This document shows, piece by piece, positions 21,479 through 41,491 of a DNA stretch of 64,000 nucleotides. Made by a program: the position numbers and the translations under genes. The DNA comes from Agaricus subrufescens (Eukaryota > Basidiomycota > Agaricomycetes > Agaricales > Agaricaceae). Numbering within the stretch: the stretch's first letter is position 1; each line of letters starts with the position of its first letter. The notes under the pieces are model-generated. The model worked only from the letters and a program-made list of their open reading frames with translations, made no database searches and was not told the DNA's origin. The stretch is from contig CM057059.1 of NCBI GenBank assembly GCA_029945375.1, positions 3,596,001-3,660,000 on the forward strand. Reading direction: 5' to 3'.

Positions 21479-21488
21479 GGTAGTTCGC
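21479..21488. repeat. Target-site duplication, left copy
   Basis: GGTAGTTCGC directly precedes the left terminal repeat and is repeated exactly at 33544-33553 after the right terminal repeat. Ten bases fits Mutator-type transposition (usually 8-11 bp). Confidence 0.9.
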
Positions 21489-21870
21489 GGGCTACAGCAA
21501 ATACGAGGAGCCCGCGCGCGGACCAGTTTTTCCGCGTTCAGGCGCGTATTGCACGCGGAGTAAGCGCGGGATCACCAAATTTATGCACATAAAAAACCTA
21601 AGAAATACTAGGATCTGTTAGTAGTACACGGTAGATACCGAACGTGCGTATGCCTATATATGCGTTTTAGCGGGCATGAGGACTGTAATTACCCAGCGTA
21701 GGCGCCTCCAATATGTGAAACTTACAACGCGGAAAGGCGAGTGAGCCACGCGGACAGACGCGGACCGGGCGCGGACAGTCGATGGCATTTGGATTTGCAC
21801 GCGGACACGCGAGGGATTACACGCGGACACGCGAGTATTTCACGCGGACTTAGGCGCGGGACCCCTTACA
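21489..21870. repeat. Left terminal repeat and CGCGGAC subterminal array
   Basis: The first 35 bp are identical to the complement of the right end of the small element (41457-41491). The array that follows repeats ACGCGGAC, CGCGGACACGCGAG and similar phrases. Such arrays are typical transposase-binding regions; binding here is inferred. From 21870 to 21988 nothing else is seen. Confidence 0.8.
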
Positions 21871-21988
21871 ATAACTATGAACACAATATATAGCGGCAAG
21901 AGATACCAATACTAGCAGAGACGGGAACCGCAAGATTTAATACTACAAAGGATAACCGAAAATTAAGACAAACTCTCGACACGTCACC

Positions 21989-24714
21989 TTAGACGGGACG
22001 TTCGCTCAACAACTCTTTTGACCATACCTCCACTTTCGCCCATGCTCTTCTAGCGTCTGCTAGTCCTCTCAGTTTGGAACGCCAATCATTTACATTGAGA
22101 GGCACACGTAAATTGTTTTTCACGGTGTCGTTGAGAATAGCGTCTGTCCTTTTGTTCCAGATCGCCTCTGCGTGCTCCGACCACCGACCGACATCCAACC
22201 CACAGCCTTCAAAGATCCAGCATTGAGGATACCAACACAGCTTGACTAGCTTGTGAGCGTGGCCTGTTCGCTTTAAGAAACAGTGCAACAGTATATCAGC
22301 AGAAACTTACCTGTGTACTTATAATATAAACCAGCCAGCATATCGAACTCTGCATCTGAGAGTTCATCATCGACGTACTCGACATCATTTGCATCCTTTG
22401 CTACAAACATGTGACTCCGTTGAACGTATAGACCACAGGGACCTCGAAGTGCCTCCGATACTTTCATGTAACGAAGGGCAATTCGTCTCGCAAAGCCCCC
22501 GCGCATCAACGCAGCACGAGCGCGAGGTGACGCCATTATCTCCTTGCATTGAAACATATAGAAATCATGATCCCTGCAATTGAACTCATGATCTGAAAGC
22601 CGCATTGGCAGGTAGGTTGACGTGGGTGGCTCAGGATCAGCCGGACCCAACGAATCTCGACGAACCACGGTATGAAATCTAACCCCCTCCAGGACCAGCT
22701 CTCGGGCTACAGCCGTTTCATCCAATCTATTCTTCGTCGGTTCATCAAGTTTGTCCATTAAGCGACATACCAGTAGTGCAGTAGCCGCTGTTGGCACAGC
22801 GAGGTTCCATGGGACAGTCTTCCGTGGACCCAAGTCGAACATATACCAAGTCGCATTGTCTCGTGTTACTCTTCGAATGAAGTTGAGCGACCGGCAATTG
22901 AGAACACTAAGGCGATTTTGTTGAGACAAATCCCATTCTGGCGGCGAAGGCCGCTGAACCTCTTTGGCAGCCAAAAGTTTGATGAAGGGAATAGCACTCT
23001 TAGCCAGTGGTGTGTCGAATAGAGGACTTGTGGTGCGCACGGTTTGAAGGCCGAGTACCGCTATTAAAGACTTACGGTCATCTTCAGACATGGATGAATT
23101 ATTAGGTGGTGGCAGGGGTATAGGCGCCACCCAGCCATAATATTCGTACAACAGTCGACGCACTTCTGTCACCAGGCGGTCTGTCAACAAATCCTCGGCT
23201 GTTTTTGCTGGCGGGTCCTCCTCTTCTTCAGGGTCATCTCCCCACTCGCGACAACAATCCCACTCGTTGTCAAACGCGTTATACTTCAACTGGTTGGCAC
23301 TGTAGCTGTTGAGTGTCTCCTCACGTTCATCATTTCTGACACGCGTTCTTACAAACGTGGGAGGCTCGTCATCGTTCCAATCCCAAACGTAAACAGGGCA
23401 CGAAGTCCTGGGAGGCTGCCGGAGACGAGATTCGCGAGCTTGCTTCTGTTTCGTTGTTTCTTTGTCAAGTTTCCTGCGGTGCCTTTCCTGCTGCTTTCTG
23501 AAGAAATCCTCCCAAACTGACCGTCCCGATCCATAGTCAGTTTCTGGAAAGCCTTTGCTGTTGATGAATGTGCGTGGTTTGTTCGCGGTGGGTTCCGAAG
23601 AGCCAGCATTATTGAGAGGAGGTTGCTGTTGCGTTACAGCGACGGTAAAAGGTCCGCGTGACGGAGCTCCGAGTTCATTAAGGCCAGGAAGTTGAGGGGA
23701 AAGAAGTGTAGGGGAGAGGGGTGTGAACTCGTAGCCTGGGGCCTCTCCGGGTCCATCTTCCCTGTCGTCATCGGGAAAATAAGAGTTGGGGTTTGTAGTT
23801 GATAAACCCGGAGCGGGGGAAGTGTATAACCAAGTGGTCGCTGTTTGTAATTGTTCGGGGGTTGGACGGAGAAGGTTAAAATCACGTTGTGTGGAAGAGC
23901 GACCTTCTCTGTCGCCCCATCGATACCACACGGGCACGCTCTGATCTACGAACCACTGTGCCGAGGGCTGAGCAGGGGCGTCAGTGGGGTGGTGCAGAAA
24001 CAAACCTACACGTTCTATCTGCCACCAGTTCTGCAGAAGTTGTGATGTACGGATGGCATCTACATAGGTTCCATTCAAATTCTGAGACCTCTTTAATACC
24101 ACTGTTTTGAACCAATCGGGCGGTGTCATTCCTTCCGCAAAATCAGGACCGTTTGGTATCTTTCTCGTGGACCAATAGAGTAGCCCCAGCCACATCGCAA
24201 ACCAATCGCGACCTTCCGTTATGTGTCGCATTGCCTCCCTCCGTGACGAGAACATCTTGTGATAACCCCAGCGTCGGGGAGGGAATGGAAGGGCGTATGA
24301 TAGATGGTACGAGTCACGAAGAACCTGGCAAGTCTCCCATAGCATTGAGTCGATCTCTAACCATTTTTCGCTATAAAAAGCCGGCAAGCCGTACTCCTTT
24401 TGGTTCTCGCAGAGTAACTTGTTGGGTATGATATTCAAGGGACCGAACCAGACACCTGTATAGGGTACGGGTTGTCTGGGCACAAAACCAAGCCACTCTG
24501 ATCCTTCACTCCACCAACGTGCTTCTTGAAAATCAGTGGCGGTGGAAACCCTCTCTACAAACTTCCACGGTTGTGGCAGAGCTGGGATCGCTGAGACGGG
24601 CCTTCGGCTGTTGGGCGAAAAATAGAGGTCACCATTGATAACTGTGACCAGACCTTCTGGTTCCATCATAGACCACTGCAAGCACGACGAGGGCAACGAC
24701 TTGGAAGATGACAT
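21989..24714 (-). CDS. Transposon-borne companion protein, about 892 aa
   Basis: Exon 1 is 24714-22311 and exon 2 22263-21989; the intron (GTAAGT..GAACAG) keeps phase. The protein belongs to a family I know from many basidiomycete genomes, marked here by PVPYTGVWFGPLN, then SSRREAMRHITEGRDWFAMW and LGLLYW, a variable middle, and a C-terminal block with HDFYMFQCKEIM, RGGFARRIALRYM and RGPCGLYV. No enzyme motif is evident. The chosen ATG (MSSSKSLPSS) lies inside a longer frame. A further ATG at 25102 (MTAKLIKVEDDPDEE) could be the true start if an intron of about 150 bp is removed. Its place in the element, in the same orientation as the transposase, suggests an accessory role in transposition. 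Confidence 0.75.
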
Positions 24715-25757
24715 GCCTTGAAGCCAGCGGGCGATGTTTGTGTATTGAAAGCAATTGATGATCGGAGGAGCTGAGACGAAGGAAGTACACGACTCAGGTG
24801 AAACCCTGTTGTCGCAACAAAAGATTTCACCACGGAGAAGCCCGGTAGTGGGGAAGGAAACACGGCTATGGTCAACCAAGAGAACTACTATAAGGCCATT
24901 CACAGTGAGTGACGCATAGACATGCTGCAATGTGCAATAAGCTTACCCTGGGGCGTGGCTTGGAAAACGGGGTTCGCGTCCCGTACGTCGATGCGGCTTT
25001 CTTGGGCGTAGGAAGTCGAAAAAAAAACCAGGAGACTGTTATTAATAGAAACCCCACCTCTTCATCGGGGTCGTCTTCAACTTTGATTAACTTTGCGGTC
25101 ATGTGCCCACCGTAACACTGTCACAGTCCCATCCCGGCGATCTTTCTCTTCATCACCCACTGTATCGTCTTTCCGTTCATCACCCACTGTATCGCGGCCA
25201 CATGTCGGTGAGAGTTCATATACATATGCGAGCAGAGGCTCTTGCAAACACCGGGGAGACAACTGGGATTCTCCACTGTCATCCTCGTCACTGACCTCTT
25301 ACAGCTCGATATTATTCGCGACAATTGGGTTTCTCCAGTGTCATAACCTCCCTTTTCCGACGATTGGGTTTCACCAGAGTCCTACTTTTACCTCTGCATA
25401 CCACGGTCTCTAAATATACGCGATAAGCCATATCCAACGCGATCGTCTCGATCGTGATCGACAACATCAACACATATTTCATCTACGATCACAGTTTCAC
25501 CTGTTGCTTCAAGTTCGTGGGCGTCCATTGTGGTCGACCTGCATTACATCTTACGGCAAGATGTTAGTGCGCGTCCGCGTCCTCGTCTTGGTCCGCGTGA
25601 TCGTCCTCGTCTTTGTCCGCGTCCTCGTCTTTGTCCGCGTCCTCGTCCGCGCGCGGCATACAAGTAACACACAATAGTCTGGGGAAGTATAGGTATGTAC
25701 TTTCCAAGTATGACAAGTCTACAGTACTTACTTACGGTTGTAGATTTAAAGTCTAGT
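24715..25757. other. Inter-gene spacer of the transposon
   Basis: It contains possible 5' exons of the companion gene (25102-24950, see that entry), two direct copies of TCATCACCCACTGTATCG (about 25153 and 25180) and three loosely repeated CAATTGGGTTTC(T/A)CCAG phrases. A short array of GTCCGCGTCCTCGT units lies at about 25565-25655, echoing the subterminal arrays. No separate gene is supported. Confidence 0.5.
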
Positions 25758-28700
25758 CTACTTACGGTGGCCACGGCCACGGTTACCTCTCCCTCGTCCT
25801 CGGCCTTGCCCGCCTGATTGGGTTTGGGTAGTGGAGGGCTGGCTGTATGGTTGTCCGCGTCCGCGTCCGCGTCCTCGTGTCGGTGCGGGCCTAGGCATAC
25901 TCTCCCAAACCTCTGGATCCGACGACCTCTTGCGCTTTTTCCCCTCCCGGCGGTCCTCGTTTATCTCTTTCTTGACTTCGATCCTTTCCATCACCATTTC
26001 CTCCTTGGCTTCGATACTTTGCTTCAATCTCCCCTCTTCTTCCTCTCCCTTAACCGTTTCCTCTTTTATTCGCCCCTCTTCGTTAAACGGTGTTAACTCT
26101 TTTATAGTTTCCTCTTCCTTCATAATATCATTGCTATCCTCCTCTTTCACCACGTCCGCCTCAAACTTAATCTGTAAAATCTCTTCCTTAACCTTACCGA
26201 ACTTAGTACCATTTTCCACCTGAATATAGTCCCATCCGAGCTATGATGGCCGTGGTGAAATAGGCCGCACTCAGTACGTGAAAAAGACGTACCGTGTCAT
26301 TCAGTGAATCTGGCTCATGGTCTCGAACGATCCAAGAGGAGGGCACGAGAGGGTAGGGATTCCAACCTCCTTGATGATCTCCCAAGTTCAAACCCCACAT
26401 GTAATCACCTGCTGTGCCGGCATGGTTCGAAAACTCAAACATTAACCGTTCCAGTTTGCTTATAGCAATGCGGTTAACATCTTCCCGGATCACCCGCCCT
26501 GTATTTGTCTGCAGTCGCCAAGCTTCTTCTACCCAAGTAACGCCATCGTTCTTTTGCCAACCCCCTCTCTCCAGCTTATACGCAATCCAAAGCGTGCACG
26601 CATGACACATAGTCGGTCCCGTCTGCCATTGGTTACGTTGGGCATCAACTAGATGAACGTGTAACCAATTGGTTATTCCCGCTTGTTCACGTAGCGGTAT
26701 CGCCCCCCGAGCTGCGTCCTTCACTACGTGGTGAAAGCTATTGACTCGTATACCGCGTGTCCTTTCAAGTACAGGTATATCGGTGGCATCCATGGAGTCG
26801 CCCGGCGCCACCAGAGCTTGTAGGGTCATTATATGCGGGTGCAATGCATCGTCTATTGCCGCGGTGTATTCCATGTAGTCGACCTCCGTGAGATAATCCA
26901 ATGTATCCTCTTCCAATTGCGACGCCAGCACCCATCGTCCTAGCTGTCGGAAATAAATAAGGTTGCTCGCACAGACAGCGTCCACTTACCCGAATATTAC
27001 GTCGCGACATAGTCTGGCCCCAGAGGGCATCAGTGATATTCGCTTCAGGCTCGGAGGTTATATCATCCCGTTTCCGCGAAGGGCCATGAGGGAAGAAGTC
27101 ACAACCGCGCCACCACTGGAGGTTCCAGGTGCGACTAGGGGCGTCATAGCCTAGCAACCGCACAGGGTAATGGAAGTCGCCTAATCGACAAAGAGCCCCC
27201 AGACCTGGTCGCAGGCGGTCTCGTAGGGAGTGAGACACGAGCCAAACATTGCTTAACATCCTAGTGCAACTGTCAGCGTCGGGCTTGTGTCCTCGCCATT
27301 TTTAACGTACCGCCGGTGAGTGACCTCCATCTTGGGTCCCGCGATATCAGGTCCTGAACATCGGTAACACAACCAGTTGCGGGAAACAGGCTGCCCATCT
27401 GGTTGACATGCACGATGACTCAACTGCTTGCAACCAGAGCACTCCTGTAGTTGACCCTCGTCGGGCGCCAAGGCGAGGATGTCCACGGGTTCTCCTGTGA
27501 GTCCACAACGACATCGCAACCGAGGAGGGCCCGACTTCTCTGGTTCGGACTTTCCAGCGTCGGACATTGCGTCGGGGTCCGCCAGAGCGTCCACCTCTTC
27601 TATCAATTGAAGGATCTCTCTCCGTTCGAGGGCCTTTCTGTCTGGCTCAGGCTGCAGGGGTGATGGGCTGGGGAAGGGCGGAGGGCGAGGTTGGCGAATT
27701 TTACGAGGTTTCTTGTGCTGAGAGCGAGCTTTACGAGCCTTGGTTTTTTTGGGCGGACGCATGGATTTCTTGGAAGGGGTTTTTTTAGTCGGACGCATGG
27801 ATTTCTTGGATGGAATTTTCTCTGCCACTTGCCACGTGTCAGATGGAGTCCAATCGGCGGGGTTAGAAGGAAGGTCGTCGTCGTCTTGGGGAGACTGCAC
27901 TCGGGCGTACAGTTCTTCTATGGGGGGCGGTTTCGGTGGATTGTTCGTTCCAACTGCTGTATCCTCAGACTCGGCAGGGGGTGGAGTGGCCGCGGCGGCA
28001 TCCAGCAATTTGGCCTCCTGTGTGACCTCTGCATATTCGTTTAAGTGGCAGCGATTCTTCGTACTCTTGATCCAATAACGACAGTGGGATGGTAGTAAGG
28101 CCAATTTTCCGGTATACGAGACAGAGGCTACATTGCAAGGGAACTCTGGTTCCACCGATATCTTAAATTTTTTCTTGAGCGCGGCCAGACGTGTTTGATA
28201 AAAAGCCTGCTGTGCCGCCAAGCCCCCTCTGAGGTAATAAACGGCGTGGTGAACAGCCTGTTGGGTGGGAAGAACCACAGGATAGCCCGCAACATGCTTG
28301 GACAAGACACCATCACGGAGGGACTGTGCCCGGCCACTGTAGAGCATGTCGTTGTACACGTAGACGGCCTTATCCTCGGTGTCATAGAAGCGAGCCGTGA
28401 AATGATTACTTGTGCTATTGTTGGCGACTATGCTCACCCCCACAAGATCATAAACGACGTTGTGTGTCTTGTTGAGCGCAGGCGGAGGAGGGTTCAACTT
28501 TGGTGGTATGTACCACTCCCAGGGTTTCGGCAAATCATCTTGGACGAATTCCACTACAAAAACGACTGGCAATGAAACTATATAGCGTGGATAGTCAGTA
28601 CGCTTCCCCGCACACAGCAGGCCGTCTTTGTCCGTGCTTCTCCAACAGTCGAGACGGGGATGCGCTCGAAGATCCATAAATTCCTTAAACCACGTGGTTA

Positions 28701-31700
28701 GACGACCATTGTACTTTTCATGTTCGGCTGGGCCCAGTTGAATTGTGTATAGCGGCTGAAGAGAAGGCGATATTTCCAGATGGGGCCCATCCGTACTTGC
28801 TCCGCCGGTGCAGTCATGAATATCGCAGTAGAGGGGCAGAAAATACGGAACCGAGCGCGCATGGTCACTTTCAGACTTCGCGGCGAGGACCCGACGAAGA
28901 AGAGACGGTAACCAAGCCTGAGAGATAGGGTAAGAGACATCGTAGACTGTACGCGATACTGGCCACTCACGAACACCATGTCTGGTGATTTCAGGTTCCT
29001 GATTATTTTCTCTTGCAACAAGTATTGGCGAATAAGATCGCGCTGTATATTCAGAGGTTCGCTGATACTCGAGTCTTGCTCCGGGCTGGATTTCTGAGCC
29101 CTAATTCGTTCTATGGCAGCAAACGTCCTTCCCTTTGTTTCGTCGTATGTAAGAGACCCACAAACGTCCACGAACTCATCCCAACCTCTAGAGAGGGCTT
29201 GATCCAGTAACGTCAAGCTAACATCAAGCCAGCAAGAGTTATCTTTCCACTGGAAGTAAATCGATCCGAAGGTGTCGCTGAGTAAAATCCTGGCCTGCTT
29301 GCGTTGTTTTGCCAGAGGCGTTTTTCCTACCAACTTCTTCATGGTGTCCGGTGCGCGGCCGTCATTGACGTAGGCACGTTCAGCATTAGGATCGCGACGA
29401 GGATGTGAGCGCCCGTGTTCCAGGGCCATACGCTTTTCGCGGGTGACAGTGCCATAATGAGTTTTTTGTCCGTCTATGATTCGTACTCAGCCGTCAATCC
29501 GCCGCCAGCAAATAACACTTACTTTTGGCCGCTGACTCGGAGCTTTGGAAGTTGTTCACCACAGCATAGAGTGCCTCCAAGCCCGACAACAGAGAATGAT
29601 CAGTGCCGACCGCTTGATACATGGCCCAGTGGTTGGCTTCTTGCGCGTTTGTGGTGTCAGGTAAGGAGTGCCACAGATCTTCCTCCATTGCCCGCTGACT
29701 CTTCATGATCATACTAGCGATCGACGGTCTTAACCACCAGTGGAGAAACTTGCTGGTACGAGGAAACTCATTCATTAAGCCTCTAGCAATCTCTTCGTAT
29801 TCTTCATATGCTGAAACTTGCGCGAGCTTCAGTGCACGTGTCATGAAGTCGTCGTGCTTCGTCGGATCCACCACAGCATGTTTGACAGCCACTCTGGATA
29901 TCGCCTGTCGGAAATGTTCAGCACACCCTTTGAGTAGAGATTCCGCACGCATCCGAAGCGTTACACGATCGCGATCATCATCCCCAGGGTTGGAGAAGAA
30001 CTCGACGTAAGCGAGTATGAAACCCTCACGCTGGGCTTGACTAAAATCCATCACCTTATCCCTAAAGTGAGTGCAATCCCGTTAATGCTTTAAACCAGGA
30101 CTCACAGAGGCCAGATGTGTTTCCACCTCGCCCTCTCCTCGCGACTGAACAATGTCTGCGATACCTTGAAACAGACTCAAGAAATAAACTTTGAATTCAT
30201 TCGCGCTGTGTCCGTTCATGTACGCCATAAGCACTGGTATCCAACGATCAAGTGCGGTGGAGTATACGGAGGAGACTTGGAGAACGGCTGCCCTGCTCTT
30301 CCAGAAACCATGGGCGCCGTCGGTAACAATACCATTCAGTGAATCGTCCAGTGTCGAGTTGTGAACACTCAGCTCCTTCATCCACGGTGTTTGAAGAACG
30401 ATGACACATTTAGGAAGGACTTGGATAGATTGATACAAGATGAACCCGGGGTATTGGCTGTCAAATTGCTGGAGTTGTTGGATGAAGTCATCGCCTCCCG
30501 ATGGTTGCTTAAACTCGTTTATAATTTTCTTCCGCTGAACAGCCACCCTATCCGTGTTTATATACGCATCAGATATCTCAGAGACCGGTGGTGTTCGACC
30601 TGTCAAAGTTGAGACGCCCACACGGAGCTGCGCCGGAGTCGCGTCTGGATAAGCAACGACGTGTTCCTTGAAACGTTCTGCATCCCATGGGGTTGCCTTG
30701 TTGATGGGGGGACGGTCATGGTCGTGCTTGCCAAAATGTTGGTACAAGCACCCGGCGTGATAGCGCGTCAACTTGTCATACGCTTTGCATTCGATGTAGA
30801 CGAACGGTTGACTGCACAATTCACAGCCCACCTTTGTCTTTTGCTCTTCAATGACTTTGGTATCAACATGAGGGCGAAGGCGATTGGTGCAACCTTTGCT
30901 CGAACAAACGAAGACGCCCCGGCAAGTGCGCTTAGTCGTCACGCCCTCCCTCGGAAGTTCTGCCGTTCGAGTGCCTCGCCTGGAAGTGCCTGGCTTGTTG
31001 GCCCATTGGGACCTCAGCCGCCCCGTCTTGACATATTCTTCCCATGTAAACAGGTGAGTCCAATTGTTGTCGGGCCACCCATCCCAATTGGCTGGTGGCT
31101 TTCGAGTTTTAAGGTCGATAGGAAAGTCCGCAGCAGTGGGTGAATGCTTGCCATCAATTAGAGAAGGTCGGTTTTCCTTCTCGGCCTCGGGTATGGTCAG
31201 AGACAAGGCGATATTGGCTTGGGTGTTGGCCACAGGAGGGGCAGGTTGGGGGGTCTGAGGCACCACGAAGCCCTTGTCGTCGGCAAGAACTTTATATCCA
31301 ATAATTTGGCCTGTAGCAGACCATACTGGTACAAGTTCCCCCAATGCTGGAGGTGCTGTCGCTTCGTTCTGCTGGCGTGCCATCGCTTCGTTCTGCTGGG
31401 CTAATGAAGGAGGTGCCTTCGCTTCATTGTTCTGCTGGGGTAATGAAGGAGGTGCCGTCGCTTTATTCTGCTGGGTTAATGCCCGTGGTGCTGACGCTTC
31501 ATTCTGCTGGGCTAATGCTGGAGCTGGTATCCTCGCGTCCGCCTGGCTGGGTCCATCAGCCCCCGCATCGTTCTGCAGGGTTAATGCTGGAGGTGCCGCC
31601 GCTTCATTCTGCTGGGTTAATGCCCGTGGTGCTGTCGCTCCATCCTGCTGGGTTAATGCTGGAGCTGGTATCCTCGCGTCCGGCTGGCTTGGTCCGTCAG

Positions 31701-31800
31701 GCCGCTCGCGAGTCTCAGATTGTGTTCTGAAGTATTTAACAACGTGCCGGATGAAATCCTGTGCGGCCGTGTACAGTGAGTGATCGCACTTGTGAATCAT
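25758..31800 (-). CDS. Mutator-like transposase fused to USP-like protease and PHD finger, about 1906 aa
   Basis: Seven exons keep phase at every junction: 31800-30106, 30054-29523, 29473-28971, 28917-27311, 27260-26990, 26943-26293, 26219-25758. Residues 35-155 are ALTQQNEA-type repeats. A GCM1/WRKY-like zinc finger has C299, C304, C326, C329 and His around 355-361. The DDE-like core shows D494 (GIVTDGAHGFW), D568 (VMDFSQAQREGF), C609/H612 (KGCAEHF) and E704 (DTTNAQEANHW). A ubiquitin-protease-like Cys box, FQWKDNSCWLDVSL (C823), and a His box, SNHFTARF (H1082), follow. Then come a Lys-rich linker and a complete C4HC3 PHD finger (C1379, C1381, C1403, C1406, H1411, C1414, C1427, C1430). The last exon (from 1754) is Glu/Lys-rich and ends in RGRGRGR repeats. 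Expected roles are cleavage and joining of element ends, with possible deubiquitination and histone-tail reading; the last two are inference. Upstream exons or an extra RG exon near 25600 are possible. Confidence 0.8.
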
Positions 31801-32791
31801 CAGTGTTTAATACCATTTACCGGTGGGACAGATCTATCAAGTCCCTTAGGGTTGATACAGCGGCGGTGTCTTGAAAAAAAAAATTGAAACCCCTGAGTGT
31901 GTTGGGTCAAAGTATTTGGTAATATCTCTCCATTACTCACATCCCTTTTTTGGAGGTAGATTCGGCCGTCGCACCGAAAACTTTGCTCTGCAATGTACAC
32001 ATTGGTAAATAATAAAGTAATGTTTGCGAGGGTAAGACGCGGGCAGACGCGGGCAGACGCGGACGATGCCTGTTTTACACATGGATAGGCGCGGAGTCGA
32101 CGAGGGCTGCACGCGGGGTGCACGCGGACTCAAGAGAGCTCACTAGGACTCACGAGGACTCACGCGGACAGGCGCGGATACAACGAGGACTGCGCGCGGG
32201 CAGACGCGGACCGACGCGGACCAATGAGGATCGACGCGGACATGACGAGGACACACGCGGTAAGTACGAGTACTTCACGCGGGCTAACTGTCGTATGAAG
32301 CCCTCGCGCGGGCTCGACGCGGAATCACATTGAAGGCGCGGGTTCGACGCGGACGTAACTCATATGTTCTTGTTATCCTATCAATCATTATATTAATAGG
32401 TATGTGATCTTCGTTTGATTTGGTAACTAGCTTTCTTTTTTTAGGAGGTACATAGTTTGGGTGCGCAATGGTGCTATGTCCACATATGCGTAGGCCGTAT
32501 CTGAAGTCCAACGCTTGCTATACCTTGTTAAACCAATTGTACACTGATATTTTCCCGATTATCCATGTTCTTGTACGCTGGTATTTGTCCACTTAATATA
32601 TCTCAAGGTGCGTACTTGTTTGTCTCCTTCCCGCCCTTTCCTCACTAACCATTGTTTCATACCACCCATGATATTCCTAGGTCGCTTTTTGTCCGCTATT
32701 GGACCTCCTCTCTGCTCGCTCCCCCACCTTAATCTTATCACACACCCACCCTGTCTCTACCTGTCCCACACAGCTAGCTCCACTCAAACCC
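31801..32791. repeat. Internal CGCGGAC array and spacer of the transposon
   Basis: A dense array of GACGCGGAC, CACGCGGAC and GACGAGGAC phrases occupies about 32030-32355, in the same orientation as the terminal arrays. The rest (31801-32030, 32360-32791) has no gene. The array lies between the promoter side of the transposase gene and the divergent small gene, so it might act on both. Confidence 0.7.
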
Positions 32792-33230
32792 ATGTCCGGA
32801 TCTATCGCCTCAGCAATGCGACTGGAAGCGGAACAGCCGCTTCTAATCGCGTCAAAGAAGTCGATGAAGCAGTTGAGCGGGCCATTATTATCCTTTGGCC
32901 GAAGGTGATCAAATATGCGGCGAAAAAAAAAATCACCGGGCCGCTTTGGGGTCAAATAAGGTACACACAGTTTTATTTAGTATGATCCCCGGATTAATGG
33001 GGGTGGATAGATCGAATTTCCACTCTTCTGGCGCACCGGGCTCGTCATCGAGGGCTTTGCATGCGACGATCCGTGTTTTTGACGACATCGGTAGGCATGT
33101 AGGAGGAATCCATGCCCCGAAGGATCGTGTGATACCTCCATCGTTCCGCGGTGGCATCAACAAGCTGTCGTATCACGGACAGCGTAGGGTTGCAGATAAA
33201 TTTGGTTTCTCAGTGCTGGTTGGTCCGTAG
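32792..33230 (+). CDS. Small transposon-borne protein, 120 aa
   Basis: Exons 32792-32904 and 32981-33230 join in phase (intron GTGATC..TTTAG, 76 bp). The product starts MSGSIASAMRLEAEQPLLIA and continues SMIPGLMGVDRSNFHSSG, then ALHATIRVFDDIGRHVGG and KLSYHGQRRVADKFGF, ending VLVGP. An alternative joins the DEAVERAIIILWPK frame to the same exon 2 through a GTACAC..GATAG intron; both give the same C-terminus. I recognise no domain. It is the only plus-strand gene of the element and lies next to its right end. Confidence 0.5.
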
Positions 33231-33359
33231 GGCCTTTGGGTTTGATTTCTTTCTTCTTTTCTATGAGTTTTCATAGTCTAAATAAACCAATGGCCACTGC
33301 CTCGACTTCTCTGAGATTTTATTTGTATATTCACTAAAAACTACATTTGTGCGCTAACT

Positions 33360-33543
33360 CGAGGGCGGGACATGGGCCAGGGACCAACGCAGACTGCGCG
33401 CGGACTGGCCGCGTACTTCCTGGCTCACGCGGACAATACTGGTCAACGCGGACAATCACGCGTATAATACGCCAACGCGTACAATCACGCGTAAAATAGG
33501 CAGCCCGCGGCCGCGCGCGGGCCCCTCGTATTTCTGGTAGCCC
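33360..33543. repeat. Right CGCGGAC array and terminal inverted repeat
   Basis: Repeated CACGCGGACAA and ACGCGTA(C/T)AA phrases end in the right terminal repeat (33524-33543, complement of GGGCTACCAGAAATACGAGG). The same variant end is found at the left of the small element at 40849. Confidence 0.8.
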
Positions 33544-33553
33544 GGTAGTTCGC
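33544..33553. repeat. Target-site duplication, right copy
   Basis: GGTAGTTCGC, identical to 21479-21488. Confidence 0.9.
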
Positions 33554-40848: not shown

Positions 40849-41491
40849 GGGCTACCAGAAATACGAGGAGCCCGCGGAGCCCGCCGCGGGCTTTTTTCCC
40901 GCGTTGAGCCCGCGTCAGCCTCTTTTTCCGCGTCTAGTCCGCATCTAGTCCGCGTCGAGTAGAATAACCCACATGATTATAATAATATAAACCTTATAAT
41001 ATTTAAAAAGCATCCTCCCCTCCGTATAGAATCAATTTTATTGTGCTCTATCTTACTTTATGTATGAAATTAGGACCTCAATCTTCCCATTTGTTGCCCA
41101 AATATGGTGGCCTTACTTGTCTAATCTATACACTCCCGCGTCAAGCCCTCATGAGCCCGCGTCTGATCCTCTGATCCCTCCTCGCGTCCTCATTGTTCCG
41201 CGTCGTACACTCGTGATCCTGCGTCATGTTTTCATCAATCCTCATTATTTAGTTATATCTATTGAATATTTGAGTGGTCTACCACCCTTGTCATCTTCTG
41301 GTATAATAAATTAACCCTTCCCCCCACTCCCTGTCTATGTTAGACCCTCCTCTAGCTCATAATTTAACCTTCATCCATTCGCACCCCCTCGTGTTTGTCC
41401 GCGTTTGTCCGCGTGTGTCCGCGTGTTAGTCCGCGTGTAGGCCTTGTCCAGGCCTTGTCCGCGCGCGGGCTCCTCGTATTTGCTGTAGCCC
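40849..41491. mobile_element. 643 bp non-autonomous relative of the Mutator-like element
   Basis: The left end GGGCTACCAGAAATACGAGG equals the right end of the 12 kb element. The right end, read inward, starts GGGCTACAGCAAATACGAGG and is identical to the large element's left end for 35 bp. The element is therefore the same family in opposite orientation. It is filled with GTCCGCGT, CCCGCGT and similar phrases and encodes nothing. CAGGCTC flanks it on both sides (40842-40848, 41492-41498); counting shared bases of the terminus the duplication is CCCAGGCTC, 9 bp. It would need the transposase in trans. Confidence 0.85.

Follow-up and report, generated by a model that had tools for sequence, protein, structure and literature searches.

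MuDRF elements are described in the main text of the Puccinia striiformis genome paper (PMC3164196) as a MuDR branch of Basidiomycota, with hosts including Puccinia, Schizophyllum and Coprinopsis, that encodes a GCM domain and a DDE transposase in one protein and generates 9-bp duplications; none of the terms protease, peptidase, hydrolase, PHD or ubiquitin occurs in that main text, and GCM and MuDRF both go unmentioned in the main text of a Mutator survey from 2019 (PMC6446971). Here we describe a 12,055-bp element in a 64,000-bp stretch of the Agaricus subrufescens genome (assembly GCA_029945375.1, contig CM057059.1, positions 3,596,001 to 3,660,000; hereafter the window, whose numbering we use throughout). 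Lying at 21489..33543 with both of its genes on the minus strand, it is a Mutator-type DNA transposon, very likely of the MuDRF branch, an assignment based on its anatomy (a GCM domain in the transposase, a MuDR-type DDE transposase and, in three of six copies, a 9-bp duplication, the other three having 10 bp) and from homologs in the genera named for MuDRF, since the gene 1 family occurs in many Basidiomycota, Puccinia, Schizophyllum and Coprinopsis among them. We are highly confident of the anatomy of the element. In gene 1 the transposase is likely joined to a domain with the predicted fold of a ubiquitin-specific protease (USP).

Gene 1 (25758..31800, minus strand) consists of seven exons (31800-30106, 30054-29523, 29473-28971, 28917-27311, 27260-26990, 26943-26293 and 26240-25758) which join in phase into a protein of 1913 residues, as an initial annotation made from the letters alone had claimed; all six splice donors that it placed, at 30105, 29522, 28970, 27310, 26989 and 26292, are GT. 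The sole detail of the earlier model that needed correction is the acceptor of intron 1, which in frame is 30055 (GATAAG/GTGATG); a nearer TTTAG at 30062 was rejected as out of frame and lacking support from other copies. The protease part of the gene is found at 17 places in the 44.65-Mb genome (34 matching pieces, two per place), and we read 13 of these copies, the one in the window and 12 others, leaving out four. Eight copies, including that of the window, were compared for introns; the proteins encoded by their exons 2-6 share about 41-95% identity with that of the window, and the six intron places recur as GT..AG gaps of 46-70 bp in 45 of 48 cases. The three exceptions are intron 1 of copy C9a, which is interrupted by 2.8 kb, and intron 6 of C8a and C6e, for which exon 7 is unaligned. 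Intron sequences differ between copies although intron places are conserved, and since these places are shared by diverged copies we consider the model sound on sequence grounds, the 3' end excepted. There, the stop codon (25758-25763) is overlapped by CGTAAGT, which resembles a splice donor, so that the end of the gene is uncertain and an alternative 3' exon is possible. Exon 1 contains 36-bp and 141-bp tandem repeats (31377-31700; the 141-bp unit in two copies with 89% matches) that encode a QQNEA.APPAL-type repeat.

The USP-type protease domain (residues 810-1145; 28213..29273, minus strand, broken by intron 3) has a putative catalytic triad of C823, H1082 and N1099, the Cys and His standing at the residue numbers first claimed for them. 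Lack of a papain-like fold around these two residues had been set beforehand as grounds for giving up the protease reading; the outcome favours that reading, a USP fold being predicted for a homolog that shares 60% identity with the window protein. Homolog searches, which scored only the candidates with most shared words (7993 in one search), found 31 proteins, of which 21 entered the alignment used here, A3. Omitted from it were P0005 (a near-duplicate of P0004 whose model lacks the Cys box), P0016, P0018, P0019, P0021, P0022, P0026 and P0028 (either fragments or models that lack the protease or the DDE part) and the OTU-bearing P0030 and P0031. Both C823 and H1082 are retained in all 13 genomic copies read; among the 21 homologs the Cys and the His are each present in 20, with one gap each and never a substitution, and the Asp in 19. 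Pfam UCH falls below its curated cut-off (16.6 bits against a required 23.9, in homolog P0001) and matches only two of 16 members at all. Sequence searches of the PDB returned only weak Argonaute matches for the protease profile (best E 0.035, profile positions 113-198), which we judged to be chance, and none at E up to 1 for a DDE-to-protease profile. Because the UCH cut-off was missed, we call the domain USP-like by fold and triad and do not claim membership of C19. Self-cleavage of a polyprotein was considered and rejected, as Pfam finds no ubiquitin-like domain in the gene 1 protein.

The remaining domains flank the protease. Part of the GCM domain (residues 289-369; 30694..30936, minus strand) is matched by Pfam and holds the GCM-type residues C293, C299, C304, C326, C329, C338, H359 and H361. 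The DDE core (residues 440-735; 29545..30483, minus strand, broken by intron 1) has D494, D568 and E704, all of them retained in 10 of the 11 copies that hold this part, the exception being C6e with D494N; the Pfam MULE family has no match anywhere in the genome. Modelling on homologs predicts a GCM fold for the first of these domains and an ISCth4-like transposase fold for the second, as it does the USP fold. A PHD-type C4HC3 finger (residues 1379-1430; 27358..27513, minus strand) has the ligands C1379, C1381, C1403, C1406, H1411, C1414, C1427 and C1430, with W1425 preceding the last Cys pair, and all eight ligands are retained in the 12 copies holding the finger, although in one of these, C6a, a stop interrupts it. 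Pfam PHD gives no match for the window protein; in homologs it is above its cut-off for P0011 (25 versus 24 bits) and reaches E ≤ 1 in five of the nine members of alignment A1. After the finger, exon 5 encodes a further domain (GALCRLGDFHYPVRLL..WWRGC; 26990..27260, minus strand) which is conserved in homologs, lacks a Pfam match at E up to 10, and has a ratio of nonsynonymous to synonymous substitution rates (dN/dS) of 0.08-0.18 in eight pairs; C8a-C6e, which are nearly identical, and four pairs with saturated divergence were excluded. The protein ends in an RG-rich tail (25761..25877, minus strand), whose RGRGRG stretch is made of CGCGGA units. CGCGGAC-type repeats within gene 1 (25853-25878) are translated as RG, and their unit is that of the arrays near the ends of the element. 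The finger annotated initially as GCM1/WRKY-like is supported as GCM-type, the DDE residues, the eight ligands of the PHD-type finger and the RG tail are present as annotated, and the proposal that these parts form a single protein is supported for the transposase, the GCM-type finger, the predicted USP-type fold and the PHD-type finger.

The initial annotation had not described the ends of the element, its target-site duplication, its second gene or its subterminal arrays, nor a 643-bp relative nearby. The terminal inverted repeats (TIRs) read GGGCTACAGCAAATACGAGG... on the left (21489..21521, plus strand) and GGGCTACCAGAAATACGAGG... on the right (33511..33543, minus strand), and are flanked by a 10-bp target-site duplication, GGTAGTTCGC, at 21479..21488 and 33544..33553. 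Elements of the Mutator superfamily have terminal inverted repeats and duplications of 8-11 bp, and the window element shows both. Perfect duplications are seen in all six copies with both ends visible among the 13 read (flanks compared by eye), of 10 bp in the window, C6b and C11 and of 9 bp in C5, C1 and C6c. Duplications of 8 bp characterise the hAT, P and Zisupton superfamilies; a first reading of the element ends gave 8 bp, which was superseded once the TIRs were taken from GGGCTAC, and as this start gives 9-10 bp in all six copies these superfamilies were rejected. The copy on contig C5, at another locus, is 100.000% identical to the window element over 12,056 aligned bp, and when the flanks are included the shared stretch stops at the TIRs; together with the duplications, this shows that the whole 12-kb unit has transposed. 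Transposition of the window and C5 copies is recent. Some other copies are decaying, given the several stops in exons 4-7 of C6a and the D494N replacement in C6e. The DDE part occurs at 15 places in the genome, one of which, C5:3387820, lies outside the 17 protease places and may be a deletion derivative. A GTAGCCC motif lies 5 bp from the insertion of copy C6c, and is possibly another copy's end, or chance.

The element holds arrays of CGCGGAC-type repeats: a subterminal one on the left (21489..21870), several subterminal ones on the right (32028..33510) and an internal one (25573..25651) about 0.1 kb beyond the gene 1 stop codon. Compared with 60 shuffles, CGCGGRY is found 8 times against 0.9 expected in 21488-22272 and 19 times against 1.5 expected in 31801-33544. 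The TIR pattern itself has 68 occurrences in the genome and its reversed control none; in six inverted pairs, including one at 40849-41491 of the window, the two TIRs are no more than about 1.3 kb apart.

Beyond the Basidiomycota, the protease position appears to be occupied differently. In four Mucoromycota relatives (P0030-P0033) an OTU-like motif replaces the USP-type domain after a shared linker, DGNCGWR lying 96-168 residues past the NDGRAPDT-type linker in all four, of which P0030 is partial. P0031-P0033 (Phascolomyces, Circinella) share DDE-type motifs and the Cys/His pattern of GCM, with core gaps in P0031 and P0033, and are named OTU domain-containing in UniRef; Pfam matches are sub-threshold (OTU, E 0.028 for P0031; Otubain, E 0.012 for P0032) and P0033 has none. 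Subject to confirmation, one slot of one transposase would be filled by either of two unrelated kinds of deubiquitinase, much as Ginger1 has OTU or ULP1 and Helitrons have VTD or OTU. This apparent exchange is our main ground for seeing the activity, rather than a chromatin-specific substrate, as central to the mechanism.

With such a domain the element could probably free itself, or chromatin, of ubiquitin as it moves. Our best single guess, which we hold tentatively and at somewhat less than an even chance, is self-protection: the USP-like domain would strip ubiquitin from the transposase complex itself, allowing it to escape ubiquitin-dependent clearance during movement. The GCM domain would bind the subterminal ACGCGGAC repeats, the GCM site being ATGCGGGT, and the DDE core would cut at the TIRs; the USP domain would keep ubiquitin off the transposase or the proteins of the transpososome, and the PHD finger and conserved exon-5 domain, which are candidates for histone binding, would tether the complex to chromatin.

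The main rival to self-protection is chromatin editing, the idea put forward in the initial annotation. Here the PHD finger, exon-5 domain and RG tail would guide the transposase to nucleosomes, and its USP domain would deubiquitinate repair factors or histones where the element leaves or inserts, so as to open chromatin or direct the repair. We regard it as possible, at roughly one chance in four: a substrate cannot be read from fold similarity, the exon-5 domain that it enlists as a reader has no Pfam counterpart, and the OTU-bearing Mucoromycota relatives (n = 4) have no Pfam PHD match, which makes the protease slot independent of the PHD finger. A wider version is a little more doubtful still, namely that MuDRF is a deubiquitinase-armed lineage across fungal phyla, with the slot after NDGRAPDT holding USP in Basidiomycota and OTU in Mucoromycota, and that the mushroom branch, having added a PHD finger and a reader-like domain, is a self-mobilising chromatin deubiquitinase that erases nucleosome ubiquitin at the sites where it excises and inserts itself. 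It is unlikely that the protease instead targets SUMO or another ubiquitin-like protein, as USPL1 (peptidase C98) does, with a role like that supposed for the ULP1 proteases of other Mutator elements. Those ULP1-bearing elements go by the name KAONASHI and their protease is SUMO-directed; we know of no GCM domain in them. Less probable again is a non-enzymatic USP fold that merely provides a scaffold for binding or dimerisation, as in the pseudo-hydrolase PAN2, since loss of the Cys and His would be expected in a pseudoenzyme, and these are retained in every copy read and unsubstituted in the 21 homologs apart from one gap each. That the seven-exon gene is an artefact, made of unrelated neighbouring exons or of a transposase and a protease on separate transcripts, is very improbable: the model is sequence-based and its 3' end, with the donor-like motif at the stop codon, is uncertain, but the same exons, phases and intron places recur in diverged copies and many Basidiomycota homologs have the DDE and protease parts in one predicted protein.

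Two further features complete the picture of the element and its relatives. Gene 2 (22273..24714, minus strand) is a single open frame of 813 residues from the chosen Met, without a Pfam match at E up to 1. It belongs to a large family, matching at least 75 genome pieces (51 of 109 candidates scored), and is under purifying selection, with dN/dS of 0.13-0.17 in five of the six computable pairs and 0.37 in C6b-C6a, four pairs involving the window having been left out because synonymous divergence was saturated. Compared with copy C1, the window element shows 61% identity in gene 2 and 75-93% in exons 1-6 of gene 1; being so much less similar, gene 2 seems to have been exchanged between elements. 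A 643-bp relative elsewhere in the window (40849..41491) has the same TIRs as the 12-kb element, 11 CGCGGRY repeats and CAGGCTC flanking both sides; it is too short to hold gene 1 or gene 2, and is probably mobilised by the gene 1 transposase. The identical second copy and this short non-autonomous relative together offer a natural two-component assay, and binding of the GCM domain to the ACGCGGAC repeats is a measurable prediction.

Proteases against ubiquitin-like modifiers occur in Mutator, Ginger and Helitron elements. One transposase lineage seems here to bear, in cis with its catalytic core, either of two deubiquitinase types that are unrelated yet take the same slot, which makes the reason why transposons need such proteases directly testable. 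The initial annotation had called a transposase that could remove ubiquitin and read histone tails an unusual way to manage chromatin at insertion sites; the protein is not a one-off, as it belongs to a family of many Basidiomycota that fits MuDRF, and other superfamilies too have transposases with proteases. The open-access literature searched, outside which lie subscription papers and Repbase reports, yielded no USP-type protease joined to a transposase of the GCM or Mutator kind, and we do not claim that the combination is absent from print.

Among known systems, Ginger1, as presented in PMC2836005, is alike in having an OTU or ULP1 protease behind the catalytic core, with a PHD finger too in one listed element and the protease type swapped between elements; its transposase, however, is Gypsy-integrase-like rather than GCM/Mutator, and its protease OTU or ULP1 rather than USP. 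The ULP1-bearing Mutator elements mentioned in the same paper (PMC2836005) share the superfamily and a cysteine protease against a ubiquitin-like modifier, but their protease has the ULP1 fold. A Trichomonas protein given a single mention there (PMC2836005) also joins a USP-type peptidase (Peptidase C19) to a transposase domain, although its transposase_11 is of another family (pfam01609). Helitrons resemble the window element in bearing a deubiquitinase whose class, VTD or OTU, is swapped between elements, and according to PMC9741609 the activity of the VTD deubiquitinase has been demonstrated by experiment; they differ in being rolling-circle elements, and their VTD is another protease family with an Asp-x-His active site (PMC9741609). 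Rehavkus, compared by anatomy alone, shares a 9-bp duplication, a PHD finger in the transposase and a minisatellite near one end, yet it occurs in arthropods and annelids, and the account of it in PMC6446971 mentions neither GCM nor a protease. With MuDRF as described in PMC3164196 the window element shares GCM and DDE in one protein, 9-bp duplications and host genera; only GCM and DDE are described there, and the window element adds the USP-type domain, the PHD finger, the exon-5 domain, the RG tail and gene 2. The window element therefore represents a known branch that has been little studied, with a richer anatomy.
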